64,000 nt of DNA, taken from positions 30,363-94,362 of the forward strand of contig VKHL01000076.1 in the NCBI GenBank assembly GCA_015146655.1, read 5' to 3'. Source of the stretch: Ochromonas danica (Eukaryota; Sar; Chrysophyceae; Chromulinales; Chromulinaceae). The position numbers and the translations under genes are program-made. This document shows, in pieces, positions 5,250 through 64,000 of the stretch. Each line of letters opens with the position of its first letter. The stretch's first letter is position 1. Below the pieces are notes generated by a model. It saw only the letters and a list, made by a program, of their open reading frames with translations. It made no database searches and was not told where the DNA came from.

Positions 5250-6430
5250 ATGGAATCAAAAACACCAGATGATATTGGAGATCGAAAACTCTCCAGTCCA
5301 GCACCTGAAATTCCTGATGACAAGTCGGGAAATGTACTTCCTAACAATGAGGAAGAAGAAGTTGGTGTTGCCCTGTTAACTAAGTCGAGACACAAGTTCT
5401 GTACTACCAGTTCTGTGTATACAGAGAATACCTTATCAAATCCGAACAATGACCATGTTAGCTATTGGTAAGTTTTATGTTTTCGTACATTTTGCTTTTT
5501 CGCTGATTCCTCGTCTGTGTCGTACAGCATTGGTGCGGTGATGCAAGCACAAATTTTTGATGATCATGAGGCCTTAGCACAACGCAATTCTACTCCGCCA
5601 GCTTTCCATCTTGAAATTCCCTTGGACCCACAATATGGTGGACCTACTACCAACATTCTTGAATCTGTGCTCATGCAAGAATCAATGCATGACTTGGAGC
5701 TTCGCCAGAAGCTGTTAGCAGGAGTTGTTCCCACTGTTGATACAATGTTCAGGTGAGTTGTTATTATTGATTTATTCATTCTTTGCTGACGAGAACATTT
5801 CTTCTCAGATTCATTGCCTATTTAACGATGGCAGCAAGATACAGTCCTCAATGTAACATTATTGCATTGGTCTATCTGAATCGCATCACAGGAAGGAATG
5901 GGTTTGCCTTGACGATGGAGAACTGGCGTGGCTTGTGGACAAGCTGCATCATTCTCGCTCAGAAGGTGTGGGATGATAAGCCTTTGCGTACGTCTAGCTT
6001 CACTCAGATCTTACCAAATGTGAGCAAGGATCAGCTTCGTGAATTGGAGATGAAAGCTTTCCAATTGATGGACTATACTGCAACAGTGAAACCTTCCATC
6101 TATGCGAAGTACTATTTCGAGTTGCGAGCCTTATTTGGAGAGATAACAAAGAATGACCCACGTTATCAATGGAACTTGAAGCCCTTAACATTAGTGCAAG
6201 GGATGCGTTTAGAAGATCGTTCGTGTCGCACTGGACGCGGTATGCGCGGTAATTTGACTGACTCAAAAGCTGCTGCCAAAGATTCCCCTGCGTCTACCTC
6301 TAACATGCCGTCTTTATCTGCCCGTGTTGGCAGTGCTTCCCAGATGAAGAAGTACGTCGACAGTGGCGCAAAGACACTGGAAGACCTTACTTATACCCCT
6401 ACCACTTCGCGTTATGTCTTGCGCCTGTGA
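5250..6430 (+). CDS. Cyclin-Y-like protein, copy A
   Basis: Three exons, 5250-5467, 5528-5752 and 5809-6430, join cleanly (GTAAGT/CAG, GTGAGT/CAG) to give 354 residues. The cyclin box resembles cyclin Y/PHO80-type cyclins: a VPTVDTMFRFIAYLT helix, CNIIALVYLNRI, MENWRGLWTSCIILAQKVWD, LRELEMKAFQLMDYTATV and YAKYYFELRAL. Cyclin Y partners PCTAIRE/PFTAIRE CDKs in animals; the partner here is unknown. The start is the ATG at 5250; the earlier in-frame GTG codon is not a credible eukaryotic start. The gene is convergent with a paralogue. Exons 1 and 2 have exactly the same lengths in both copies, but only a 374-bp core of exon 3 is identical. The C-terminal tail TLEDLTYTPTTSRYVLRL is conserved in protein but differs at synonymous sites. 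Confidence 0.85.
5849..6222 (+). repeat. 374-bp block identical (inverted) to 8004-8377
   Basis: Reading both strands, I find no mismatch between this block and the reverse complement of 8004-8377. Antisense frames through both blocks also translate identically. Identity stops abruptly on both sides (CCT|CAATG versus ACA|CAATG; CGTTC|GTG versus CGTTC|ATA). It spans most of the cyclin box. Confidence 0.9.
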
Positions 6431-7804: not shown

Positions 7805-9002
7805 TTATAGGCGCAAGACATAGCGCGAAGTAGTGGGGGTATAAGTTAAATCCTCCAAAGTCTTCGCGCAAACATCCTTTGCCTGTCCATAAGATGATCC
7901 AGGGGAACCAGAAGAAGACGGGGACACATGTTTCGCTCCCTTAGTTTCGCTGGAATTACTGCTACTCTTGGAAGCAGAACGAAAACCATTTCCTGCACGA
8001 TATGAACGATCTTCTAAACGCATCCCTTGCACTAATGTTAAGGGCTTCAAGTTCCATTGATAACGTGGGTCATTCTTTGTTATCTCTCCAAATAAGGCTC
8101 GCAACTCGAAATAGTACTTCGCATAGATGGAAGGTTTCACTGTTGCAGTATAGTCCATCAATTGGAAAGCTTTCATCTCCAATTCACGAAGCTGATCCTT
8201 GCTCACATTTGGTAAGATCTGAGTGAAGCTAGACGTACGCAAAGGCTTATCATCCCACACCTTCTGAGCGAGAATGATGCAGCTTGTCCACAAGCCACGC
8301 CAGTTCTCCATCGTCAAGGCAAACCCATTCCTTCCTGTGATGCGATTCAGATAGACCAATGCAATAATGTTACATTGTGTGCTAAAATTAGCACGGAAAC
8401 TAATTAACGAAATAAATCTAGTGTGCACATCGAAAGTATTTCGTTGTAAGCAATGCAGAGATTCTAAAAAACGTGGTTTAGTTCACTGACCTGTAAACTG
8501 AATCAACGGTGGGAACTACACCCATAAGCAGCTTATTTCTCAACTCATCATCATGAAGAGTTTCATGGTTAAGAATATGATCAGGAATACGCTCAAGGGG
8601 ACCACCATATTCAGGGGATAGAGGTATTTGAAGATTAAATTCTGGAAAGACATTTTTTAGCGCATTAGGCGATTCAAAGTCATCGAAAATCTGGGCTTGC
8701 ATAACTGCTCCAATGCTAATTAAATAGATTTCATCCGTCAGATTTGAAAAAAACATTTCATAGTAAAAAAAGTAGCACACTTACCAATAGATCACTTGAT
8801 CATTGTTGGGATTGGATAAGTTATGCTCGGCATAGACAGAACTGGTAGTACTATATTTTAATCTGTTAATTGCAATAGGTTCATCTGATGGTGTGACAAC
8901 ACGATTATCTGTTGAGGCAGCAGGAACAGCTGAATCATCATGATCAAGAAGTTCATCTAAATGATCAGCAGAAAAAGGACTAGAATCTTTAGTATCATCC
9001 AT
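7805..9002 (-). CDS. Cyclin-Y-like protein, copy B
   Basis: Minus-strand paralogue of copy A. Exons 8785-9002 (218 nt), 8491-8715 (225 nt) and 7805-8417 (613 nt) give 351 residues. The donors are GTAAGT and GTCAGT; the exon 3 acceptor is ACACTAG. Exons 1 and 2 are the same lengths as in copy A but strongly diverged in DNA and protein; only short islands such as TTSSVY and LSNPNND are shared. The cyclin box core is identical to copy A over 374 bp. After the block the Ser-rich linker diverges completely, then the last 19 residues (KTLEDLTYTP...) are the same protein with different codons. Both copies appear intact and presumably functional. Confidence 0.85.
8004..8377 (-). repeat. 374-bp block identical (inverted) to 5849-6222
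   Basis: Counterpart of the block in copy A, with the same abrupt ends. It lies wholly inside exon 3 and does not reach an intron. Confidence 0.9.
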
Positions 9003-10558: not shown

Positions 10559-11221
10559 GTACTACCACTACCATCATCCTCCTTACAAGTGTCAGATCAG
10601 CATATTGAGGATGATCGTGGTGGTAGTGGTAGTGGTAGTGGTGGTGGTAATCGACGTCATCATAATTCATCTCGTAAGAATCCCAATCCAACCACTAACA
10701 CTAACACAAGAACTACTGCCACTACTACTACTACAATGAATCATCACCACCATAGTAATAGTAATAGAAATAGAAAGTCTAGTTCTAATACCAACAAGAT
10801 CACTAAAGCAGAATATGTTCTTGCCAAGTAAGTTTCCCCATTAGACTACATCATTTACATTATGGATGAGTTGATTAGCTAACAGGTTATCTATCTGTGG
10901 TGATGGCGATGATGATGATGGTGGTGACGTCAATAGTTTTCGCTTTGTAATTAGTCCATTATCGAACCCTTTTGAAACAGCTTGGTTTAATGCTGATGTT
11001 GCCATACCATGGGAATTAGTTCATGCTATCTCACCACCACCAGGTAGTAGAAATTATCATCTTAATGAAACTATTTGTCCAATTTGTCTAGAGGAAGAAT
11101 TGAAATTACCACGAATGAGTCGATGTGGTCATATTTATTGGTATGTCATTACTCATTAGATTAGTAGATGATCCCCCCATTTTATTAATAACTAATGGAC
11201 TGATTGCTTGTGTTGACTGCT

Positions 11222-11264
<43 letters not shown>

Positions 11265-13616
11265 CGTCGTCGTCGTTGTTGTTGTTGTTGTTGTTGTTGT
11301 TGATTGTGTACAATAGCTTCCCTTGCATATTACGTCATCTTCATAGTGATCGCAGTAATGCAAATCGTTGTCCTGTCTGTATGGAGAAGATTTGCATCTC
11401 TGATTTCAAGTTAGCTTTGTTAGAAGGAAGTCCATCTCTAACAATGACGACATCATGTCATCATCATTCTGTTGCAGTCAATGAGATACATTCCTTCTCT
11501 CATCTTACATTCTCTAAAGATGGAAGTATCACTCCTAAGCTCTTGGACAATGACAATGAGGAGAATAAGATGAGGTTAAGAGATGAAGAGTCTGTTGGTA
11601 TGAACAAGAAGAATGCTATAGTAATAGGGAAGAAAGAGAAGAAGAAGTCATTAGCAGAACAGATTTACCATCTGACAGAAACTTTACCTCAAGCATCACC
11701 TGATGTTGATAGTCGTGCTATCTATAGTCGTGTTATGTTTTATTCTTTAGATGATATGATGAATAGCTTTCAATATCAACTTGATGAAGTGAAACGATGG
11801 GAAGAAATATTAAATCATCCTTTCTTACTTAAACCTACACAATCTCCTATACTATTACAATCATCTACTACTACCACTACCACTACTACTGCTACTACTG
11901 GTGCTTCTTCAACGGTCACTTCCTATCGTAATGCTATAAGCCGTGCAGCAGTAGCAGGTAGTAGTGATAGTCTATACTACAATCCTCCTCCAGCAGTCAC
12001 TATCCCTGGTCTACCACCTCGTAGTGGAGGAGGACATCATAGTGTGTGTGATAATGAAGATGATGATGAATGGTTAGTATTGGTTTACTTGGAAGAAGCA
12101 CGTCAGATTATTCAAGAAGAGAAGGCAAAATATCAAACTATCTTAGATGAGCAGTTCGTCAATGATCTCATACGATTAGAAGTAGAACGACAACCACAAC
12201 CACAAGCACAAGCACAACAACAAGCAGTCAAAGCTGTGGAAAGCACTTCTATGGATGATATGATAACTACTGTAGGTGATGAGACTAATGTTAGTGCTAC
12301 AGGATTAGTAACACTACCACCAACCACTACAACAGGTGCTACAACAACAACAGGTGCTGCTACTACTAGTAGCACTAGTGAAGAAGGAGGAGGAAGATTG
12401 ACAGTAGAAACTCCTGGTATTTATCATTTCTATCAATCAAAATCAGGTGCTTATATATTCACACAACCTTTCTTACTTCGCTATTTACTTCAAGAAGCTC
12501 AAGCAAGTCATCATATCCATCACCATCGTCATCTACTACCTACTACATTAGAAGGACGTGTTTTAGAAGTAGAAAGTGCAAAAGTTACAATGGAATTGAA
12601 AAAACGTTATCGTTTCTTCTCTCATATTCCATTACATAGTGAAGTCATTTTAGTTGATATGGATATTACATCTTATTTACATCATCGTAATGTATTACAT
12701 GAATATCGTAAAGAATGTAAAAAACGTCATGAATATCGTTTAATAAAGAAAAGAAAAGAAGATGAAGAAATACGTTTAGAAGCTGATCGTCAATTAGCTG
12801 AAGCAATAGCATTAGAAGAACGATTAATGCGATTAGAATTATCAAAAGAAGAACATGAGAAGAAAGTGCAAGAGATCTTAGCACAGGCACCTCCTCTACC
12901 ATCATCAACATCATCATCAACAACAACCAAACTACAGGGAGATAGTTATGACATCAACAGGGATGAGACAAGTAATAATAGTAGTAATAATAATAGCAAT
13001 GGTAATAATGCTAAAGTAGAAGAAAAGTTTGCTTCTTTTGCTGCTATTACACAGGTTAGACTAGTACTAGTTGACATTATGTCATTTGTAATAACTTCTC
13101 TATGATGTTGATGATGTTATTATTAATGATCAATATGACGATATGATTTATGAACAGAAAGGAGGTCATTTCCCATTGTTAGGAGAGCAAACCAAGGCAA
13201 AGCAAACACTTTCTTCCAATGGTCAACAGGGTGGTAGTGGTAGTGGCTTGGGTGCTTGGGGTGAGTCTCTTCCTTGTAACAATATACTGTTGGGCTGTGC
13301 ATAGTCCTTATTGAATGCTTTCATGATGTGACTCATTGTGATAGGCAAAGCTACACCATCTTCTTCATCTGCATCATCTAAAGGTCATTCTAATGTTGTT
13401 GAAGAAGGTTCAAATGCTTCAGCATGGAAACGAGGAACAGCAATACCTCCTCCAGCTATCATGTCGTCAACTAGTTCGAAGGAGAAGAAAGGCAAGGTCT
13501 CTTTGTTTTCAACTGCCAGGTAAGCACACTTTTTCATGATGATAACTATGACTATGATAATAACTAATGGTGTTCTTATTTGATATTGTTCTGATAGCTC
13601 TAGAAGTTATCGATAG
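10340..13616 (+). CDS. RNF10-like RING-finger protein
   Basis: Six exons, 10340-10827, 10886-11140, 11317-13054, 13158-13260, 13345-13519 and 13598-13616, keep frame to a TAG and give 925 residues. Order: a low-complexity basic N-terminus with polyQ; the RNF10-type region FRFVISPLSNPFETAWFNAD; a C3HC4 RING split by intron 2 (CPICLEEE ... SRCGHIYC-FPCILRHL ... RCPVC); a helical region (LVYLEEARQIIQEEKAKYQ); then GIYHFYQSKSGAYIFTQPF, the VTMELKKRYRFFSHIPLHSE block and a charged coiled coil, all in the order seen in animal RNF10. The C-terminus has FPLLG...GAWG. RNF10 is an E3 ligase for small ribosomal subunit proteins in animals; the same role here is inferred. Intron 2 is largely GTT repeat. 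Confidence 0.85.
11222..11302. repeat. (GTT)n/(GTC)n microsatellite in RNF10-like intron 2
   Basis: The GTT tract has a short GTC interruption and ends 14 nt before the CAATAG acceptor, so it forms most of the 3' part of the intron. Confidence 0.95.
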
Positions 13617-38707: not shown

Positions 38708-40090
38708 TTAATATGGTTTAGGAAACAAGGTAAATGTGGAAAGACGCAATCCACCATTCAATCGAGGCAGACTATCAAATGCTTTCTTGGCTTCTTCAAG
38801 CATCTCCTTGCCTTTCAGCTCTCTCTTATCCCATTTCATTAAGAGTTGACCATAACATGCACGTGTTACAGCCGCTTCATAGTTATATCTTGCATCAAAT
38901 TTCACTAAAGGTATAGCAAATTTACCAAGACTTGCATTAAACAATCCTTCAGCAGTCACAGCTTGTGTTGTCTTCATATGTAACAACCCTATCTTACGTA
39001 AAGCAACACCTAAAGTTGGTTGAATGGTAAGAGATTCATCAAATGGTTTCAATGCTTGAACTGCTTTCGCTAGATAGTCATTACTTTCTTGTGTCTTGCC
39101 TAACAATCCCATTAGAGAGCCATAGTTAATATATAAGGTTGCCAATGCAATGGCTAACTCTTCATCTTTAGTAATATCTAGTTTCTCCTTTTCAACTAAT
39201 TGTAGTGCTTCATTCCAACAACCTGTAGCTGATAGAATCAGATTATGACCATCTGCTTCATTCTTTCCTGTGGTTGCTAAGAAGGTTAAAGGTGATTTAT
39301 GAACTTCATCAGGATGTAGTTGTCGATGATCTCTTTGACAATCTTCTTCTTCCTTTTGCCAATAATGATAAGATTGAGAACAATCAATACCATTGGCTAA
39401 TTTGAAAAAGATTAAAGCCCCATTATTCACAAATGCTTTCACTTCTTCTAATGGTGTTGTTGCCCAACGCGATGCTAATAGTAGATATGTTTCTGCATCT
39501 TGTAGATTATTCCCATATAACGCAGCTAATCCCAAACTACTATAAGCTGCTGAGAAAAGTGTATTGTCAGGATTAGCATGATTTTGATTTTCCACTAATT
39601 CGACTGCCTTTTCTGCCATTTCTTGAGATTTCATTACATTATGATAAGAACATAGATAGGTATTAGCTAAGAAGATTTGTCGTGAGAGTTGATCTGGTAG
39701 ATGTTGGAAAGACTGTGTTTCCATCATTTCCACAGCTTTTTCACGCTGTCCTTGATAACAACGTAAAGCAGCTAATCGAAAGAAGATCTCATTTGCTAAA
39801 GGATGATCATCTCCAAATGCATGATTCAATACTTCATAAACACGTTCAAAAGAAGTAAATGCTTGTTGGAATTGTCCCTTTTGTTGGAATAACAGACCTT
39901 GTTGATATTCGGGTAAGGAATTCAGCATCGAGGAGTGACTATTTGCTGCTGTTGTTGCTTGCAGACATGGGCTGGATTGAAAATATCGTCTAGCAGTAAC
40001 GATAGAGTGATGAGATGGAAATCTCATTCTGGCAGTAGAAGAAGAGGGAAGAAGAAGAGCAAGTTGTGTCCAATTCGTCTTCTTCAACAT
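38708..40090 (-). CDS. TPR-repeat protein, probably mitochondrial
   Basis: Intronless, 460 residues from the ATG at 40090; an in-frame TTG two codons earlier is not a likely start. The N-terminus (MLKKTNWTQLALLLPSSS ... RMRFPSHHSIVTARRYF) is basic, Ser-rich and free of acidic residues, as in mitochondrial presequences. Helical TPR units follow (EYQQGLLFQQKGQFQQAFTS, ANEIFFRLAALRCYQGQ, YSSLGLAALYGNNLQDAET, ATLYINYGSLMGLLGKTQE). A TTC19-like role in respiratory complex assembly is possible but not established by the sequence. The gene is divergent from the MYB gene, with 208 bp between starts. Its first 270 or so bases are duplicated at 62.5 kb. Confidence 0.7.
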   Translation of the reverse strand: MLKKTNWTQLALLLPSSSTARMRFPSHHSIVTARRYFQSSPCLQATTAANSHSSMLNSLPEYQQGLLFQQKGQFQQAFTSFERVYEVLNHAFGDDHPLANEIFFRLAALRCYQGQREKAVEMMETQSFQHLPDQLSRQIFLANTYLCSYHNVMKSQEMAEKAVELVENQNHANPDNTLFSAAYSSLGLAALYGNNLQDAETYLLLASRWATTPLEEVKAFVNNGALIFFKLANGIDCSQSYHYWQKEEEDCQRDHRQLHPDEVHKSPLTFLATTGKNEADGHNLILSATGCWNEALQLVEKEKLDITKDEELAIALATLYINYGSLMGLLGKTQESNDYLAKAVQALKPFDESLTIQPTLGVALRKIGLLHMKTTQAVTAEGLFNASLGKFAIPLVKFDARYNYEAAVTRACYGQLLMKWDKRELKGKEMLEEAKKAFDSLPRLNGGLRLSTFTLFPKPY

Positions 40091-40298
40091 GTTCAATGAA
40101 AGAGAGAGATAGAGTAAACAAGAGACAGGTCAAGAGAGTGAGAGAAGGTCACTCACTGCTGACAAAGAATTAGTTCTTCTTACACACCATCAACCCCGCT
40201 CAGCTCATCTGTTGAGCGGCTGAGTGGCTGAGTGGCAGTGCGTTTGAGCTGATCGCTCAGCATGCTGCACTCATGTCAAACACTTGGAAAACAAAAAG
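40091..40298. promoter_or_regulatory. Shared divergent promoter, TPR / MYB copy A
   Basis: 208 bp between start codons. It holds the inverted repeat CCGCTCA (40196-40202) / TGAGCGG (40213-40219) and several GCTGAG direct repeats. The whole segment is duplicated upstream of MYB copy B. Confidence 0.5.
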
Positions 40299-42068
40299 AT
40301 GCTGCAAAAGACTTCCTTCTCCTTCTTATCGCGAGCCTTGCCATTGATGCGATGTGTGAATAGGAGTTATAAGCATCATTTTCCTCCTCTTCATTATGGT
40401 TATCATGTGAATGGACCCAGGAGGGTGTTGGCAGGAGGATGGTCTGGTGGGACTGTTCGTCTGCTGTCATCCTCCAGAGAGATGAGCATGAAGGAAATGG
40501 AAACAAATCCTCTCTCTTCATCTTCAAGTTATGGGTTGTTAAAGAAGGAGCAGAATGAAGGTGGAGCTAGAGAAGGTAAAAGAAGGTGGACAGCAGAAGA
40601 AGACATGTTACTGAGGAAAGGGGTAGAAGAGTTGGGAGGGAAATGGGTTGAGATTTCCAGAAGATATCTTCCGCATAGATCTGATAAGGATGTGCTTATT
40701 CGATGGAATGAAGTTCTTCGACCAGATATCAAGTCAGGTGCCTGGAGTGCAGAGGTAGAGTAGTTGGACTATTGTATGATGAGGATGAGAGCTGTTTGAG
40801 CAGTGTCTAGTGCAGCAGTCTATTGTGTGATGTGTGTCTGGTGTAGACTAGTAAGTGACATGTGTTTGTTGTTGTTTGTGTAGGAGGATGCGAAGTTGTT
40901 GGAGTTGGTGAAGCAGTATGGCGAATCTTCTTGGTCCAAGATAGCTCCTCACATGGATGGTCGACCAGGTTCTAGATGCTCTGTAAGGTATGAGATAGAC
41001 CTCCTCTTCTGTATGTAGACTTCTCCATGTCATGTGTAGATGTGTCTATGATGTGAGGTAGATGGAGACTTGCATTGGATCCTTCCGTTGATCGATCAGA
41101 GTGGAAGGCAGAAGAAGATGAGATCATCAAGAAGGTCATCATGGAGGATATGGATCAAAAGCATGTTCGATCAGAATGGCAATCTCTTCTTGCTTTATTT
41201 CCTACAAAGCGATCACATGATGCTTTACAACTTCGCTACCGATCTTTGAAGAATCAATTATTTCCAGTAAAGAAGGCACAATGGACGAAGGAAGATGATG
41301 CCAAGTTGTTGGAGTTAGTAAAGCAACATGGGGCAAGGGATTGGTATTTGATTGCCAGCTATCTCCCACAGTATAATAGAGACCAATGTTATAATAGATA
41401 TTATTATATTAATAAATCTCGCAGTGAAGTAGCAGTAGCCGATAATCTATGGACAGAAGAGGAAGATGCAGAGTTGTTGAAAGCAGTGAGACAGTTTGGG
41501 GATAGTGGGAAATGGAGTGCTGTAGCATCTTCTCTGTCTTCTTCTCACACAGCGATGGAGTGCAAAGTGAGGTGAGTTTATTGTTAATGAGAGTCATGCA
41601 ATAAAGTGGATATTGATTGTTGTTGTTCTGTTTGTGTATGTATGTGTGTGATATGATTTTAGATGGGAGAGAGAGTTGAGTCGACTATTGAATATTTCTC
41701 CTTGGACAAAGGAAGAAGATGATCTTCTTATCTCCTTGCGCAGTAAAGGGCTTTATTATGACGACTTATTTCATCACTTGAAGACCAGAACTTATGCTGC
41801 TATAGCTAAGCGATGTGAAGAGCTTGGAGTGGGAGCAAAGCCAAACAAGCGATGGACAAAGGAAGAGACAGCATTGTTGGTGAAGCTGGTAAAGGAGAGT
41901 AAAGAAGGTGGTGGTCGAGTTAATTGGAAGTGGATTGCGAAACAAATGTCATCGGAGAGAACAGCAAATGCTTGTCTTATGTATTATAAGAAGTATTATG
42001 TAGATAAGGAGAGCAAAGAAGAGAAAGCAGAAGAAGAGCAAGAGATAGAGAAGTCTGAGAAGAGGTAA
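40299..42068 (+). CDS. Seven-repeat MYB/SANT protein, copy A
   Basis: Exons 40299-40754, 40884-40987, 41062-41571 and 41663-42068 give 491 residues; intron donors are GTAGAG, GTATGA and GTGAGT. After a basic, presequence-like N-terminus (MLQKTSFSFLSRALPLMRC) and a Ser-rich linker, seven tandem MYB/SANT-like repeats run from about residue 92 to 480. Each opens with W-T/S-x-E-E/D-D (RRWTAEEDMLL, AWSAEEDAKLL, EWKAEEDEII, QWTKEDDAKLL, LWTEEEDAELL, PWTKEEDDLL, RWTKEETALL). The tail is Lys/Glu-rich. This resembles SNAPC4-type or other multi-repeat MYB DNA-binding proteins; location (nucleus or mitochondrion) is unclear. Copy B differs mainly at third helices. The in-frame TTG upstream of the ATG is not used as the start. 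Confidence 0.85.
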
Positions 42069-43008: not shown

Positions 43009-46000
43009 TTAGGGAGTGATAATATTGATGATAAGAGGAAGTCGTCTAGATGATGTTTCAGCATCAGGTAAGAAGGGAAGAGAACAGCTGAATTCTACCT
43101 TTCCCCGTCCTCCACCACCTGGTGTGAGTATGGCAGCAGAGGAATTACCTCCATCCAGCATAGCAGCAGGTGATGTGAAAGGACGATGATTCGAGCCAGG
43201 TCGTCCATTACCCTCTTCTCCTTCTTTGCGATCTTTTCTTTTCCTGTTACGACCATGATGATGATTACTACTATTGGAAGCTTTCCCACTTCCAACACGT
43301 TGTTTTGGATACTTCGCAGATGAACTAGGAGTAGCATTTCCTCCAGCAGGACTATTAACAATAGGTGGCAAAGAGGTTCGACCTCGATCACGATCATAAT
43401 CACCAGAATCTTCTTGTTCTTGTTGTGGCTGTGGCTGTGATTGTTCATGATGGTAAAGACCATGCTCAGCCGCGTACAAAGCACGCTGTTGAGCCATGAG
43501 AATATCAAATGGATCGGGTGTACGTGGTCTACTCCATGGACGATAAGCATTAATCATCACCCCAGCACATAACGAACGCCTTGTCAAACCCATTCCAAGA
43601 TGTGGTGGAGAATGAGAACGAGCACAACGACGTGTCGTGGTCGAACTTGAAACAGACATGGATGATCTTAGTGAAGGGCTATTCACTTCTTTCCATGATT
43701 GTGAACTACTTGGATCACGATAGATCATTCCTGAATAATGAGAATAGATGGAATCTGATCCACCTAACTTTGGTCCATCATCATCAAATCCAGGAATAAA
43801 ATGAACATCACCACCACTATTTGCAATAGCATCTTGGGCATCAAACGATGATTGATGTCTTAATAATTCACGTAATTTATCCCCTTGTATAGAATTACGA
43901 ATACTACTTTGTCTTCCTACTTTTCGTGATGGTTGACTTTGTGGTGGAGGTCCTGCAGAAGATTTACGACTAGCTTGAATAAGTTGAGATAAGGAATCCA
44001 AGCTTGTTGTTAATACTACTCGACCATGAGGACTACTTGCAGAGTTATTACCAGCTGTCATAACTGCTTGATTAGCACGTAAAATACTTGCTAAACTCTT
44101 TTGACCTGCAACACTATTCCTTCCTCCCAATAGGGTAGAATCACGTGCTAATGAAGTAGAATGAAGACTATTACTACTATTCTTTACATGACTATTATGA
44201 TCTTTGCCTTGTAACTTTCTTTGCCATCCAAAACGTCGATCAATTAAATCATCGGATTGTAATTCTGACAATAATTCTACCATTTCTTTTTCAAAGATCT
44301 TTATACGATCATCAACACGTTTGCTTCCCATACTATCTAATAGATTACTATTATTATTAGTGTTACTGTTGTTGGTGGTGTTATTGTTAGTGTTATTAGT
44401 GGAGGAACGTGAATCTTCACTAGGATTATTATCCAAGGATTTCCTTCTCATGGTACGAGCAATTGATAATCGTTTACTTGTCTTCCCCGAGGCAAGGGGT
44501 GTATTAGCTGATGAAGAAGTTGCAGAAACTGGAAGTAGTTGAATAGCACCTGGCTTCAATACGGATGGTAATTGTCCCATCATAGTATAGGATGAAGAAG
44601 AAACAATTGATTCTTGTCCATCAACACTGTGGTTACCACCATCATCTAGACTTCGTTGATCTTCTTCAGCCACAGATCCTTGATGGCTATTTTGCTGCTG
44701 TTGTTGCTGTTGTTGTTGCTGCTGTTGTTGTTGTTGTTGTGGCAGTTGCTGGTGATGATTCTGTTTCCTGGAATGTCCCATACCCAATGGTGTCTTTGTG
44801 GGAGAATTCATGGAATGATGAAGACCTTCAGCAGATGATAAGGATGGTGATGGTTGACGATGTTCAATATGTAATCCTCCACTATGAGAATGATGAACAT
44901 TCCCAACATCTCCAACAAGCTCCAGACTCATTGGATGACTCGCATCGTTAGAATGAGATGGTATTAGCGAATGTAGAACTGTATGAAGTGGTTTGACAGG
45001 ACTTCTCTCTACGAAGTCCCGATATTCTTTCTTCTTCAATCCAGCCTTAATAGAACTAAATCCTAACGATCTAGCTTTTCCAAATCGAGCTGCTAATTCA
45101 GCTTCACGACGTGCATCTTCTTCTTGTTTCTTCTTCTTGGCTTCTTCCTTCTCTCGTAATTGCCGTTGTTGTTCAGCTTTCATTTGTTGTAAACGATCAG
45201 CAACTTCTTGGGCTTGTTTACGTGCTGCTTCAAAATCATCGATCGATCCACCCAGTTCATCCTCAATGCGTGATCCCAAGACCAACGAACGCAGTTTAGC
45301 CACTCCTATTCGTCCCTTTCCACGCATCGTACTAGTAGGACTGGAATTAGTATTCGTTGGAGCAGCATTACCTGTGCTGGTTGTCGATCCTTCCTTTCCA
45401 TTAGCTTTCACTCCAACATCCAGGACAACAGGAGTTACTGGACTGGCAGCAGATCCATTTAATACTGAGTTAGTAGCTGACGAGGTTGCATTCACTCCAT
45501 TTTGACTTTCCTTGTCAACAGAATGCTCAGCTTGGAGTAGTGTTTCAATATCAGTCTTGGGTTCAATGAAGGACTTTAATACTGTGCGGCGTTGAAGTCG
45601 TTGCATAATTTTGCTATACTCAACATCTGAAACTGGCGGATGATTCTGCAAATGATCGGAAAGTTTCTTGGAGATATCTTCTACATCTCGTCTTGTAATG
45701 GGTCCACCAAAATTACAACCTGTTTTACTACTACCCTCATCCATAGAAGAGCTTAGAAGAGTTTCATTGATACTCTCTGGTATCATCTGTTCCTTTGGTG
45801 TAAGAGGATGAAATAATACTGGAGATGGCTTCTCTTCCGCTAATAGATCACTCAAACTGTGCGAATGAGATGAACCAAGTTTGGAAGAAGCACGACTCAG
45901 TTTAGGTGCTGGACTATCCATTCCTGAACGTGCAGAATTTGGCTCAGCAGGTTTTCGAAACAAACCTCTGGCACTCCCTGGTGGAGTTGGTCGATTAGAA

Positions 46001-48200
46001 GAAGAACGCATCAAAGCAAACTTCTCCACTGTAACCGGTGATGAGATAACACCATCTGCAACTAACTTATGAATATGCAGATCATGGCTATGTTCCATCA
46101 GATCGCCTTCTGAAACCTTTTCAACGACTGTATTATCTTTCTCCACAGGTATTGAATGTGATATTGTTGCTGTTTCTTTCGAATCCACTGTTTCCATGGA
46201 AGGAAGACTAGTAACAGCTATGGGGGAAGCAGGACGCAATGCATTAGTAGTATTTTGCTCATGCTTTGCCCAATCTCCTACACTATGACTTTGGTCTAGA
46301 AGAGATTCCTCCAAATTGTTTGTTGGATCAGTTGCCTCGTGTTCAACAGATTTCAACACTTCCAGCTCATCATTTTCAAGCATGGATGTGGTCAAAGTAC
46401 TTGCGTTATGGCCCTCGTCTTCAAGCACATTCACAACCACAGCGGGTTCTTCAGATTCGGAACATTTGTTCTCTTCCATTCTATTACGTTGACCTTCTTC
46501 CTGCTCTACATCAGGAATGCTTTCACTTTCGTTATTAGAGATAGTTGTTACTTCTCTTATTGTTTGATCATGGTTGATTTTCTCTTCATTGCATCTTTCC
46601 ATATTCTCACTATCTTGGGAAGTTTGTTTGACTTCTTCCGAAGATATCAGATTATCCTGCTCTGTTGTGGATTGATTCTCTTCCACAGGCATGACTTCTG
46701 GCAGTGAATCATTTTTCATCTTCTCTTCTGTGGGGACTAGAACTTCTGCATCCGATGCAGAGTGATTGTCTTGTCGATCATTATCCTTTATAGCCACATC
46801 AATTCTATTATCTTCCACAAGTGTTGAAAACAAATCAACGACGCCTGTTGAATTATCATTAATTGAATTTGAATTCTCTTCATTTAAATTGGTGCTAATA
46901 CCTCCTGTCATTACGTCTTGTGGGGTGATTTCCAGGGAAGCTTCTTCTTGGTTGTCTATATCCTTTTGAGCATTATCATGATTCTTTTCCTCCTCTAGAT
47001 TTTCTCCATTCTTCTCACTTTCATGTAAAGTCGTCATTTCCTCCATTGGCGAAGTATTGGATTCTACTGTCTCACATAGACCCTCTCCCATATTATTCGT
47101 TACTGACTGTTGCAAATCCTCTACCATCTTCTCATCTGCTGGAATGCATACTTCCATGCCATTTGCAGAGAGATTGTCCTGGTAATTGCTGGTTGAGGTG
47201 AATTGCTCTTCCTTTGAGCTTATATCCGCTGCTACTGCCACATCTAATGGTTCGTTGTTGATCTGGCCAATATTGGTATTGTTGTCTGGCAAGATGGCTG
47301 GTGGTTGTTGTTCTACAGATACAATTAGATCTTCTTTAAGAACACCAGGAAGAGATTCGTTAACACTACTTTCATTGGCTAGTACAAGAAGAGAAACAGT
47401 AGGTTCACTATGACAATCTTCATTAGATTGTGCCTCGCTTTCTATTTGAGGAATTGATCCATTCCATGTATCTTCTATATTATCTTCTTTCATCAAAGAA
47501 GAATCTTTTCCACGACTTAAAATACTTTGAGCTGCCATAACAACAAAGGTATTAACCAAATAACAAGCCCATCCACGAAATATAAATTGTGGACCAAGAT
47601 TATCATAATCCATCATATAGTCAACTTCATCCATGGGTTCAGCAATTGATGCTAATGTTGTCGAAGGACTACTATAAACACCTCCAAATCCACTATCCTC
47701 ACTGACTCCACGAGGTCGTAGTATAGGCATATTAGTACCAGCATTATCTTGGAAAATCCCAATGGTTTTCGCACTTTCAAATGTTGTTGTTCCTTTCAGC
47801 TCTTCTAAAGATTGAATCGAGTCTTGACGATCCATAGGATAAGATACAATACTATCATCATTGACAATACTATCAAGTCGACTACTTAACTGTTCTAATG
47901 TATCTTCATCACCACCATTTGTCAATCCTTCTAAGGAAAATGAATTCCCATCATCAATAGAAGTGAACGAAGCTCGATCAACTTCGACTTCAGCAGATTT
48001 AGACACTTTATTGCTTGCAGCAACATGTTCAGAGTCTAAACTGTTTGATGCATTATTATTGCCTTCATTACCTGTCACAACACATGACACAATATAGAAG
48101 TTATATCGAATCTAAAGATATCAAAAATGAGACAAAAGAATATCTTACTTTGACTATCCAAGTCAGGCCCAGACAAGGAATCCTCTTCCTCTTGTTTCAT
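43009..48200 (-). CDS. Large disordered protein with coiled coil, unrecognised
   Basis: Two exons, 48149-48200 and 43009-48071 (donor GTAAGA, acceptor GACAG), give 1704 residues; the upstream exon supplies the only good start (MKQEEEDSLSGPDLDSQ). The first half is acidic and Ser/Asn/Glu-rich, with one hydrophobic patch near residue 180 (FRGWACYLVNTFVVMAAQS). A charged coiled coil lies around 985-1040 (AEQQRQLREKEEAKKKKQEE), then LGFSSIKAGLKKKEYRDFVE, a polyQ tract, Ser/Asn runs and a conserved-looking end (INAYRPWSRPRTPDPFDIL). I recognise no family; a cytoskeletal or scaffold role is only a guess. The 3' half is copied, 5'-truncated, at 62.75-64 kb. Confidence 0.7.
43527..44892 (+). repeat. 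Source block 2 of the permuted duplication (part seen)
   Basis: Matches the reverse complement of 62750-64000. From 43527 to 44639 I see no mismatch on sampled stretches, and antisense frames of 112 and 72 residues are the same. From 44640 to 44892, which includes the polyQ codons, the copy is diverged and about 115 bp shorter. The match runs off the window edge. Confidence 0.9.
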
Positions 48201-60504: not shown

Positions 60505-62270
60505 TTACCTCTTCTCAGACTTCTCTACCTCTTGCTCTTCTTCTGCTTTCTCTTCTTTGCTATCCTTCTCTACATAATACTTATTATAACACAAACAACA
60601 AGCATTTGCGATTCTCTCCGATGGCATTTGCTTTGCAATCCACTTCCAATTAACTCGACCACCACCTTCTTTACTCTCCTTTACCAGCTTCACCAACAAT
60701 GCAATCTCTTCCTTTGTCCATCGCTTGTTTGGCTTTGCTCCCACTCCAAGCTCTTCACATCGCTGGACTATAGCAGCATAAGTTCTGTTCTTCAAGTGAT
60801 GAAATAATTTGTCACAATAAAGCCCTTTACTGCGCAAGGAGATAAGAAGATCATCTTCTTCCTTTGTCCAAGGAGAAGTATTCAATAGTCGACTCAACTC
60901 TCTCTCCCATCTAAAATCATATCACACACATACATACACAAACAGAACAACAACAATCAATATCCACATTATTGCATGACTCTCATTAACAATAAACTCA
61001 CCTCACTTTGCACTCCCTCGCTGTGTGAGAAGAAGACAGACAAGATGCTACAGCATTCCATTTCCCACTATCCCCAAACTGTCTCACTGCTTTCAACAAC
61101 TCTGCATCTTCCTCTTCTGTCCATAGACTCTCAGCTACTGACTTTCCACTACGATACTTTCTAATACGAGTATATTTGTGAAGACATTGTAATCCATTAT
61201 ACTGTGGAAGATAGCTAGCAATCAATTTCCAATCCCTTGTCCCATGTTGCTTTACTAACTCCAACAACTTGGCATCCTCTTCCTTCGTCCATTGTGCCCA
61301 CTTTACTGGGAAAACTTTCTTCTTCAAAGATTGGTAGCGACTTCGTAAAGCATGATCAGTTCGCTTTGTAGGCAACAAAGCAAGAAGAGATTGCCATTCT
61401 GATCGAACATGCTTTTGATCCATATCCTCCATGATGACCTTCTTGATGATCTCATCTTCTTCTGCCTTCCACTCTGATCGATCAATTAAAGGATTCAAAA
61501 CCTTCCTCCATCTACCTCACATCATAGACACATCTAAACATGACATGGAGATACTTGGAGATGATGAGGTCTATCACATACCTTTTGGCACAACTAAGAG
61601 CTGTTCGACCATCCATGTGAGGAGCTATCTTGGCCCAAGAAGGTTCACCATACTGCTTCACCATCTCCAACAACTTCGCATCCTCCTACAGAAACAACAA
61701 CAAACACAGATCACTTACTAGTCTACACCAGACACACATCACACAATAGACTGCTGCACTAGACACTGCTCAAACAGCTCTCATCCTCATCATACAATAG
61801 TCCAACTACTCTACCTCTGCACTCCAGGCACCTGACTTGATATCTGGTCGAAGAACTTCATTCCATCGAATAAGCACATCCTTATCAGATCTATGCGGAA
61901 GATATCTTCTGGAAATCTCAACCCATTTCCCTCCCAACTCTTCTACCCCTTTCCTCAGTAACATGTCTTCTTCTGCTGTCCACCTTCTTTTACCTTCTCT
62001 AGCTCCACCTTCATTCTGCTCCTTCTTTAACAACCCATAACTTGAAGATGAAGAGAGAGGATTTGTTTCCATTTCCTTCATGCTCATCTCTCTGGAGGAT
62101 GACAGCAGACGAACAGTCCCACCAGACCATCCTCCTGCCAACACCCTCCTGGGTCCATTCACATGATAACCATAATGAAGAGGAGGAAAATGATGCTTAT
62201 AACTCCTATTCACACATCGCATCAATGGCAAGGCTCGCGATAAGAAGGAGAAGGAAGTCTTTTGCAGCAT
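60505..62270 (-). CDS. Seven-repeat MYB/SANT protein, copy B
   Basis: Exons 61815-62270, 61582-61685, 61002-61511 and 60505-60910 have exactly the same lengths as copy A (456, 104, 510, 406) and give 491 residues. Exon 1 is the same protein as copy A over all 152 residues. Exons 2-4 differ at about 60 residues, many within the third helices: GRPGSRCSVRW becomes GRTALSCAKRW, KRSHDALQLRYRSL becomes KRTDHALRSRYQSL, and NRDQCYNRYYYINKSRS becomes NGLQCLHKYTRIRKYRS. The structural Trp and acidic first-helix residues are kept. Introns 1 and 3 are almost identical to copy A. The frame is intact, so this is a functional-looking paralogue with altered predicted specificity. Confidence 0.85.
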
Positions 62271-62478
62271 CTTTTTGTTTTCCAAGTGTTTGACATGAGT
62301 GCAGCATGCTGAGCGATCAGCTCAAACGCACTGCCACTCAGCCACTCAGCCGCTCAACAGATGAGCTGAGCGGGGTTGATGGTGTGTAAGAAGAACTAAT
62401 TCTTTGTCAGCAGTGAGTGACCTTCTCTCACTCTCTTGACCTGTCTCTTGTTTACTCTATCTCTCTCTTTCATTGAAC
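62271..62478. promoter_or_regulatory. Duplicated divergent promoter (copy of 40091-40298)
   Basis: Same 208-bp length as its source, with the inverted repeat and GCTGAG repeats preserved. It could drive MYB copy B to the left and the truncated TPR reading frame to the right. Confidence 0.55.
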
Positions 62479-62760
62479 ATGTTGAAGAAGACGAATTGGA
62501 CACAACTTGCTCTTCTTCTTCCCTCTTCTTCTACTGCCAGAATGAGATTTCCATCTCATCACTCTATCGTTACTGCTAGACGATATTTTCAATCCAGCCC
62601 ATGTCTGCAAGCAACAACAGCAGCAAATAGTCACTCCTCGATGCTGAATTCCTTACCCGAATATCAACAAGGTCTGTTATTCCAACAAAAGGGACAATTC
62701 CAACTAGCATTTACTTCTTTTGAACGTGTTTATGAAGTATTGAATCATGCATTCTCATAG
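62479..62760 (+). pseudogene. 5' fragment of the TPR gene, truncated
   Basis: Copy of the first 91 or so codons of the gene at 38708-40090, including the presequence-like N-terminus, with one seen substitution (KGQFQQAF to KGQFQLAF). At 62750-62753 the sequence switches to the large disordered-protein copy and the frame closes at 62760, predicting a 93-residue peptide ending NHAFS. It has lost nearly all TPR units, so it is probably non-functional unless the short mitochondrial-type peptide is used. Confidence 0.85.
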
Positions 62761-64000
62761 TGGAGGATTACCTATTCAACATCGTCAAATCATCACCATT
62801 CTTATCATCTGCTGATGGTCTTCGTCATTCCATGGATTCTTCCACAAAGACACCAAGTACTACAACAAAAATCCAGCAATAACAGCAGTGGTAACCACAG
62901 TGTTGATGGACAAGAATCAATTGTTTCTTCTTCATCCTATACTATGATGGGACAATTACCATCCGTATTGAAGCCAGGTGCTATTCAACTACTTCCAGTT
63001 TCTGCAACTTCTTCATCAGCTAATACACCCCTTGCCTCGGGGAAGACAAGTAAACGATTATCAATTGCTCGTACCATGAGAAGGAAATCCTTGGATAATA
63101 ATCCTAGTGAAGATTCACGTTCCTCCACTAATAACACTAACAATAACACCACCAACAACAGTAACACTAATAATAATAGTAATCTATTAGATAGTATGGG
63201 AAGCAAACGTGTTGATGATCGTATAAAGATCTTTGAAAAAGAAATGGTAGAATTATTGTCAGAATTACAATCCGATGATTTAATTGATCGACGTTTTGGA
63301 TGGCAAAGAAAGTTACAAGGCAAAGATCATAATAGTCATGTAAAGAATAGTAGTAATAGTCTTCATTCTACTTCATTAGCACGTGATTCTACCCTATTGG
63401 GAGGAAGGAATAGTGTTGCAGGTCAAAAGAGTTTAGCAAGTATTTTACGTGCTAATCAAGCAGTTATGACAGCTGGTAATAACTCTGCAAGTAGTCCTCA
63501 TGGTCGAGTAGTATTAACAACAAGCTTGGATTCCTTATCTCAACTTATTCAAGCTAGTCGTAAATCTTCTGCAGGACCTCCACCACAAAGTCAACCATCA
63601 CGAAAAGTAGGAAGACAAAGTAGTATTCGTAATTCTATACAAGGGGATAAATTACGTGAATTATTAAGACATCAATCATCGTTTGATGCCCAAGATGCTA
63701 TTGCAAATAGTGGTGGTGATGTTCATTTTATTCCTGGATTTGATGATGATGGACCAAAGTTAGGTGGATCAGATTCCATCTATTCTCATTATTCAGGAAT
63801 GATCTATCGTGATCCAAGTAGTTCACAATCATGGAAAGAAGTGAATAGCCCTTCACTAAGATCATCCATGTCTGTTTCAAGTTCGACCACGACACGTCGT
63901 TGTGCTCGTTCTCATTCTCCACCACATCTTGGAATGGGTTTGACAAGGCGTTCGTTATGTGCTGGGGTGATGATTAATGCTTATCGTCCATGGAGTAGAC
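62750..64000 (+). pseudogene. 5'-truncated copy of the large disordered-protein gene, runs off window
   Basis: Inverted copy of 43527-44892. The first 140 or so bases (62754-62887) are diverged: an extra base after CATCGTCAA shifts the frame, and the polyQ codons are replaced by a short CAA/AGC-containing stretch, net loss about 115 bp. From 62888 (GTGGTAACC) the match is essentially exact and the gene's frame stays open to base 64000. It lacks the promoter, the first exon and about the first 1075 codons of its source. An internal ATG (62944) could start a protein, but nothing shows it is expressed. Confidence 0.85.

Follow-up and report, generated by a model that had tools for sequence, protein, structure and literature searches.

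Two MYB genes with a common scaffold

The window analysed here, 64,000 nucleotides of Ochromonas danica (assembly GCA_015146655.1, contig VKHL01000076.1, positions 30,363 to 94,362 of the forward strand), carries two paralogous genes for seven-repeat MYB proteins: gene A at 40299..42068 on the plus strand and gene B at 60505..62270 on the minus strand. Both are open spliced frames with GT..AG introns, exon lengths of 456/104/510/406 nucleotides and a product of 491 residues. In A, exon 1 (40299..40754) encodes the N-terminal region and MYB repeat 1, exon 2 (40884..40987) repeat 2 including most of its helix 3, exon 3 (41062..41571) the end of repeat 2 together with repeats 3, 4, and 5, and exon 4 (41663..42068) repeats 6 and 7 and a charged tail; the exons are separated by intron 1 (40755..40883), by intron 2 (40988..41061), which is divergent among the copies of the family, and by intron 3 (41572..41662), of low divergence in most copies and divergent in the two designated K and M below. 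The four exons of B lie, in order, at 61815..62270, 61582..61685, 61002..61511, and 60505..60910, all on the minus strand. The 5′ flank of A (39816..40298) is shared with B (62271–62753).

The top Pfam matches of both proteins are MYB models: PF00249 is found with E 1.5e-65 in A and 6.5e-69 in B (217.5 and 228.3 bits against a cut-off of 24.4), over five and six stretches, respectively. Placed by eye, each protein has seven MYB repeats with three regularly spaced tryptophans or other aromatic residues, the exception being repeat 6, in which Phe and Cys replace the second and third Trp. No zinc finger (models up to E 0.01), KRAB, SET domain, or PPR is among the Pfam matches of A and B. Judged by its sequences, this is a real and unusual MYB family with a diversified predicted DNA-reading face.

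The contrast between A and B is striking. The original prediction held that the two share exon lengths and exon 1 protein (152 residues) and differ at about 60 of the 339 residues of exons 2–4, and that these changes cluster in the third, DNA-reading helix; all of this holds. In exon 1, 0/152 codons differ, while 61/339 residues differ in exons 2–4. Exon 2 has the predicted 9 amino-acid-changing and 2 silent codon differences; the corresponding numbers are 36 and 8 in exon 3 and 16 and 2 in exon 4. The 78 helix-3 codons of exons 2–4 take 30 of the 61 amino-acid differences (hypergeometric p 5e-7), and the 24 presumed base-contact codons in the same exons take 16 (p 5e-8). Over the whole gene, with 28 contact codons, not one silent difference falls on a contact codon. 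That the introns are spared, as was also claimed, is correct for intron 1 (3/129 sites differ) and intron 3 (1/91) and fails for intron 2, left out of that comparison, which differs at 7/70 sites and by four bases in length.

The family in the genome and in a second assembly

Twelve near-full-length copies, which we have lettered A–K and M, are present in the genome, on the window's contig C76 (3 copies) and on contigs C23 (6), C169 (1), and C182 (2); among them, copy C lies at C23:42570–44339, copy D at C23:203983–205746, and copies I and J in tandem in locus L014 (C23:93688–98148). Including fragments and distant relatives, there are 35 DNA matches to the family. Starting at its own ATG, copy K reads in frame until a stop codon that precedes repeat 7. 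The best protein matches of the family are P0001–P0013 and P0015, labelled Ochromonas danica and originating from a second assembly. A search with the unusual third repeat returned 10 proteins among 65 candidates, again all labelled Ochromonas danica. On these sequence matches, the seven-repeat MYB family is one found so far in a single species, and no publication on such a family appeared among the papers listed in searches of the openly licensed literature.

Counterparts in the second assembly exist for seven genes (C, D, E, G, H, I, and J), although the counterpart of G (P0005) differs at its N-terminus. Within the first 290 residues of a neighboring kinase, 86% are matched in the second-assembly proteome at 100%. 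P0011, a diverged relative, is split over two contigs of the present assembly, with residues 1–319 on C231 (at the end of locus L023, C231:32788) and residues 319–447 on C127 (L024, C127:72231). No telomere repeats were found in the examined loci, which took in most, not all, of the contig ends concerned, and a comparison of open reading frames (ORFs) of at least 180 codons over 16 loci revealed no linked gene families beyond local duplication.

Variation on the presumed DNA-reading positions

The repeats were aligned on the third Trp or its equivalent, and positions −6, −3, −2, and +2 relative to it were taken as the presumed base-reading, or contact, positions. Averaged over the seven repeats, the mean pairwise amino-acid difference peaks at exactly these four (0.66, 0.65, 0.70, and 0.49, respectively), followed by −7 (0.46) and +1 (0.40); the least variable positions in helix 3 are those of its core, −4 (0.06) and 0 (0.07). 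The placement of the helices, which the original prediction took from known MYB structure, is supported by the sequence alignment to c-Myb (1h88, E 4.7e-29), where these columns hold a Lys in repeat 2 (position −6) and Lys-Asn in repeat 3 (−3/−2). We take these residues to be K128, K182, and N183 in the c-Myb numbering, and presume +2 to be a contact as well. A passage of published work names K128, K182, and N183 as key recognition residues (PMC3240579).

Across the 12 copies, there are 3.89 amino-acid types per contact codon versus 1.61 elsewhere in the repeats (permutation p 1e-5). The number drops to 2.64 if the contact mask is slid one codon either way, and to 3.0–3.1 if it is slid by four, about one helix turn. 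Repeat 5 is exceptional in having few codes, only 6 among the 12 copies. The same pattern is found in the ten second-assembly proteins taken alone, with 3.79 types per contact column and 1.60 elsewhere in the repeats (p 5e-5). The hypervariable reading face is thus independent of which assembly is right.

Tests of selection

Replacement and silent changes were counted as minimum-spanning codon steps over the 12 copies. The 28 contact codons have 98.5 replacement to 13.5 silent steps (an omega-like ratio of 1.89) and the helix-3 flank positions 44 to 8 (1.73), whereas the helix-3 core has 24.5 to 15.5 (0.43), helix 1 has 79.5 to 40.5 (0.52), and helix 2 has 50.5 to 30.5 (0.49), helices 1 and 2 together giving 130:71. 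The replacement excess over neutrality at the contact codons has p 0.019 and 0.002 with a transition weight of 1 and 2, and 0.0004 with a weight of 3. Restricting the count to the seven genes with a second-assembly counterpart, and masking exon 3 of E, exon 2 of I, and the repeat-5 helix of C, D, H, and I, leaves the contact codons at 82.5:11.5, with an omega of 2.04–2.43 (p 0.015–0.002). Replacement changes are therefore concentrated on the presumed reading positions family-wide and in the second assembly, as expected if the recognition residues have diversified in the way originally proposed. We consider it likely, on these comparisons, that the base-reading residues of the seven-repeat MYB family are under diversifying selection.

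The bases of the contact codons point the same way. Of their 84 positions, 68 vary, and three or four alleles are present at 31 of these; at the biallelic sites the four bases are involved about equally (17–20 each), and transversions outnumber transitions (21:16). Codon positions 1, 2, and 3 vary at 25, 26, and 17 of the 28 contact codons. Preference for positions 1 and 2 over 3, with the bases equally used, is a mark of selection for amino-acid change.

Introns, silent divergence, and probable exchange between copies

Among the seven genes with counterparts, site divergence is 0.097 at four-fold sites, 0.019 in intron 1, 0.095 in intron 2, and 0.040 in intron 3; intron 2, as divergent as the four-fold sites, adjoins a third helix. 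Divergence along the repeat region is wavelike. It rises at the third helices of repeats 1, 2, 3, 4, 6, and 7 and dips at introns 1 and 3, the first helices, and much of repeat 5. For silent and intron sites from codon 95 onward, with the first 94 codons excluded, divergence is 0.067 at the 236 sites lying no more than 60 base pairs (bp) from a contact codon and 0.017 at the 128 sites farther away (circular-shift p 0.018); without repeat 5 the values are 0.090 near and 0.025 far (p 0.042). Silent divergence about fourfold higher near the contact codons would explain why two introns are spared.

Intron 1 is 98–100% identical in the 15 places where it was found, which include an isolated 308-bp relic and a copy with exons only 70–85% alike. 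In the relative on C231, outside these 15 places, the intron is 63% alike and the exons 75–78%, and this argues for homogenization within the family and not for a general constraint on the intron. A mobile introner was considered for intron 1 and rejected because all 15 matches lie within this MYB family. Exchange between copies, coupled with selection keeping exchange off the reading helices, would explain both the spared introns and the homogenized intron 1. The conversion from other family members that had been suggested thus receives support as exchange at intron 1, and less strongly at intron 3 and the scaffold. Locus L021 (C76:110148–111791) is a diverged, probably decayed copy, with exons 70–85% alike and intron 1 matching at 127/129 positions, which suggests homogenizing exchange.

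Assembly error or recent conversion

More difficult to judge are the exact blocks shared between copies. Over the polymorphic sites compared, A (gene positions 1–1219) and B (1–1362) consist entirely of overlapping blocks without mismatch to other copies: A equals B over positions 1–514, then C and I, and then M at 842–1219, while B equals D at 460–864, its exon 2 being identical to D and different from A at 14/104 sites, and then C at 814–1362, its exon 3 showing no mismatch to C from position 814 on; the overlaps are 42–55 bp. The history assumed in the original prediction, a recent duplication followed by rewriting of the helices, is therefore doubtful for A and B, as blocks common to other copies fit chimerism as well as conversion.

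We judge it narrowly probable that the A/B contrast and the exact sharing of cassettes stem from chimeras, collapsed or gap-filled MYB copies that have taken in pieces of other paralogues; the family would still be diverse, while A and B as written may not exist. Besides the exact blocks that A and B share with each other and with C, D, I, and M, the 150-bp exon windows are bimodal, 38 having 0 mismatches, 8 having 1–4, and the rest at least 5. A run of 2,877 N (C76:94363–97239) starts right after the last base of the window and ends at a MYB exon, another on C224 (up to 5491) ends in a MYB copy, C76 begins inside a MYB copy, and C23 begins sixty bases from one; N runs ending in MYB copies favor assembly gaps. 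In the second assembly, moreover, the four-residue codes of the first repeats are nearly all unique (repeat 1, 11/11; repeat 2, 11/11; repeat 3, 10/11; repeat 4, 7/8; including the diverged P0011), and the counterparts there depart from gene I in repeat 2 and from gene E in the repeat 3–4 block. Set against this, codes are shared among second-assembly proteins too (P0001 and P0004, repeats 5 and 7), and the region upstream of B is 8/111 bases off its A-side counterpart at one repeat, a difference that would not arise from a pure copy error. The joints also leave reading frames and splice sites intact, although homologous joints would preserve them anyway.

The exact blocks may instead come from real, very recent conversion re-sorting whole recognition helices as cassettes, so that the repertoire would differ between cultures of one species; we regard this as somewhat unlikely. 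It would account for the identity runs, unmatched in 1,000 shuffles, in 31/66 copy pairs, although the test took all 12 copies and the rows of K and M, some of which are among the 31, carry no weight, because intron 3 is divergent in both and short runs within it then seem remarkable. By exact 12-residue matching, the fetched loci cover all four control proteins residue for residue (P0011, P0012, P0013, and P0121), whereas only one of the ten second-assembly family proteins (P0010) is fully covered, and recognition helices account for much of the uncovered part. For the exon-3 cassettes of P0001 and P0006, nothing in the whole assembled genome matches above 88%, but they may sit in its N runs. 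Against conversion, the exact sharing is at 100% and tracts of intermediate age are few, and the places where sharing occurs are just those at which the two assemblies disagree, as chimerism predicts. Given the N runs, the bimodal windows, and the unique second-assembly codes, the exact blocks do not count as proof that conversion took place. The sharpest helix contrast, that of A against B, may be partly assembly error; the probability left over for the exact blocks goes to a mixture or to some other duplication history.

N-termini and upstream flanks

The first 60 residues of A include 7 Arg and 2 Lys but nothing acidic, while the other 431 residues hold 74 acidic ones (Fisher p 6e-5). In the ten N-termini examined, the first acidic residue is at 61 in A, B, and F, at 58–60 in D and M, and at 25–52 in C, E, G, and H. 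These acid-poor, Arg-rich N-termini hint at a possible mitochondrial presequence, though a weakly amphipathic one. The tandem copies I and J are unlike most others in starting with a long hydrophobic stretch followed by Val-Ser-Ser-Phe, which could be a plastid-type signal in this group or possibly one for the endoplasmic reticulum.

Homology between copies begins near the ATG. The upstream flanks are mostly unrelated, with the exception of A/B, I/J, and E/H, and of short stretches in C/G. GTGGAAT motifs occur upstream of C, D, G, K, and M (loci L013, L016, L012, and L018), in four of the five together with CATGGAAT; they lie at most 420 bp from the start, most within about 120 bp, and could reflect shared ancestry or a regulatory site.

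Other features of the window

Beyond B, the 1,113 bp at 62888..64000 (minus strand) are a 100% identical inverted copy of 43527–44639. This right-hand copy truncates a copy of a 1,700-residue ORF (43012–48111, minus strand), which has no Pfam match, and, as it ends exactly at the 2,877-N run, its assembly is uncertain. A second inverted repeat, of 398 bp (5849–6246 and 7980–8377), is 97% alike between its arms, each with an ORF of about 220 codons. Long CAA/TTG arrays are found at 1723–1812 and 11215–11309, and a CTG/TTG array at about 44668–44761 codes for poly-Gln in the 1,700-residue ORF. Rfam and tRNA scans across the window gave no match.

Proposed explanation

We propose that diversifying selection acts on the base-reading residues and purifying selection on the remainder of the repeat fold, and that exchange between copies maintains the similarity of the stretches away from helix 3 (introns 1 and 3, the first helices, and repeat 5). 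Conversion tracts overwriting a helix would be selected against, while tracts in the scaffold would be neutral. Each copy would then bind a different sequence, and new copies would gain new specificities. More tentatively, the N-termini of most copies would send the proteins to an organelle, the mitochondrion, where they would guard against changing organelle sequences; this part of the proposal we hold to be possible, but short of probable. As to function, guarding of an organelle in the manner of the plant restorer-of-fertility-like (RFL) PPR proteins is our preferred guess, by analogy, followed by silencing of transposons or viruses in the nucleus in the manner of the KRAB zinc-finger proteins. 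Bolder still, and quite improbable, is that a chrysophyte has a MYB-based equivalent of the RFL-PPR or KRAB zinc-finger repertoires, an organelle- or genome-guarding set of seven-repeat proteins in which helix cassettes swap so fast that two cultures of the same species with identical control genes differ in their codes.

Several observations weigh against this proposal. The replacement excess over strict neutrality is moderate (p 0.002–0.02), so that relaxed constraint on the contact codons is disfavored only, and silent steps per codon are somewhat higher at the contact codons (0.48) than in helix 1 (0.26) or helix 2 (0.40). The correlation of divergence with distance is not significant on four-fold sites alone (Spearman −0.19, p 0.11). 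The N-terminal 94 codons, far from the reading helices, also have high silent divergence (four-fold 0.119), and causes other than proximity to a reading helix must therefore be involved as well. Of the 12 copies, K stops before repeat 7, and J, K, and M are without a normal C-terminus. For the organelle part, the Arg-over-Lys bias of the N-terminus (p 0.07) and its amphipathicity (p 0.02–0.34, depending on the copy) are both weak, and the early acidic residue of C, E, G, and H and the hydrophobic start of I and J are further points against it.

Relaxed constraint would mean that DNA reading is no longer needed and the contact residues drift, the fold being kept, for example, for SANT-type protein contacts. 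SANT-like uses of the MYB fold exist, and the only moderate replacement excess leaves room for drift. We nevertheless find this explanation unlikely: both gene sets give an omega greater than 1 at the contact codons, the differences between A and B on these 28 codons are 16 replacements and no silent change, and what varies is the presumed base-reading face and not the helix core. A targeted process rewriting the helices, of retroelement or deaminase type, had also been raised and would suit the tight localization of the variation, but it is highly improbable given the equal use of the four bases at biallelic sites, the excess of transversions, and the preference for codon positions 1 and 2. 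The substitutions thus lack the single-base bias of diversity-generating retroelements or deaminases, although no search was made for a template repeat or a nearby reverse transcriptase.

Comparison with known systems

Diversifying selection on the reading face, our preferred interpretation, has its closest parallels outside the MYB proteins. Like the RFL-PPR genes, the family encodes multi-repeat nucleic-acid binders in expanding copies, several close together, with diversifying selection on target-contact residues, and organelle targeting may be a further likeness. In barley RFL genes, such selection peaks at PPR positions 5 and 35 and in clusters (PMC7380019). The MYB family differs in having three-helix repeats and no PPR and in DNA being the expected ligand.

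The likeness to fast-evolving zinc-finger arrays, already drawn in the original prediction, is well founded in that contact residues diversify on a fixed scaffold. PRDM9 is a diversifying array of DNA-reading modules, and the KRAB zinc-finger proteins and PRDM9 share with the present family base-contact residues that diversify on a fixed scaffold, along with duplication and conversion. The replacement excess is concentrated on base-contact residues, as in families of the KRAB zinc-finger/PRDM9 kind, while the C2H2 zinc fingers of that kind are absent. Mouse KRAB zinc-finger genes show positive selection in the zinc-finger array and re-sorting of base-contact triplets (PMC5363842). Unlike these, the MYB copies read here have a constant seven-repeat array, in which the modules change and not the number of repeats. 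By analogy, the family resembles the RFL-PPR and KRAB zinc-finger systems, yet belongs to neither.

With c-Myb, the R2R3-MYB proteins, and SNAPC4, the family shares the repeat fold as judged by alignment (1h88, E 4.7e-29; SNAPC4 chain 7xur_A, E 8.8e-26) and the same reading positions. Classical MYB families usually keep the reading residues and helices nearly fixed, whereas here the reading residues are the most variable. A control drawing on MYB proteins, plant AS1-type ones among them, picked up only 3/57 and is uninformative. Homogenized introns beside diversified coding sequence recall the MHC and snake-venom phospholipase genes, where conserved introns accompany diverse exons, but there is no relation in protein or function.

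If the proposal is true, the different copies should bind different sequences, and the family would serve as a natural library of the MYB recognition code, with reading residues changed at most of the seven repeats on a scaffold that is kept. The arms-race logic of the zinc-finger and PPR proteins would then also apply to a different fold, in a distant eukaryotic branch.
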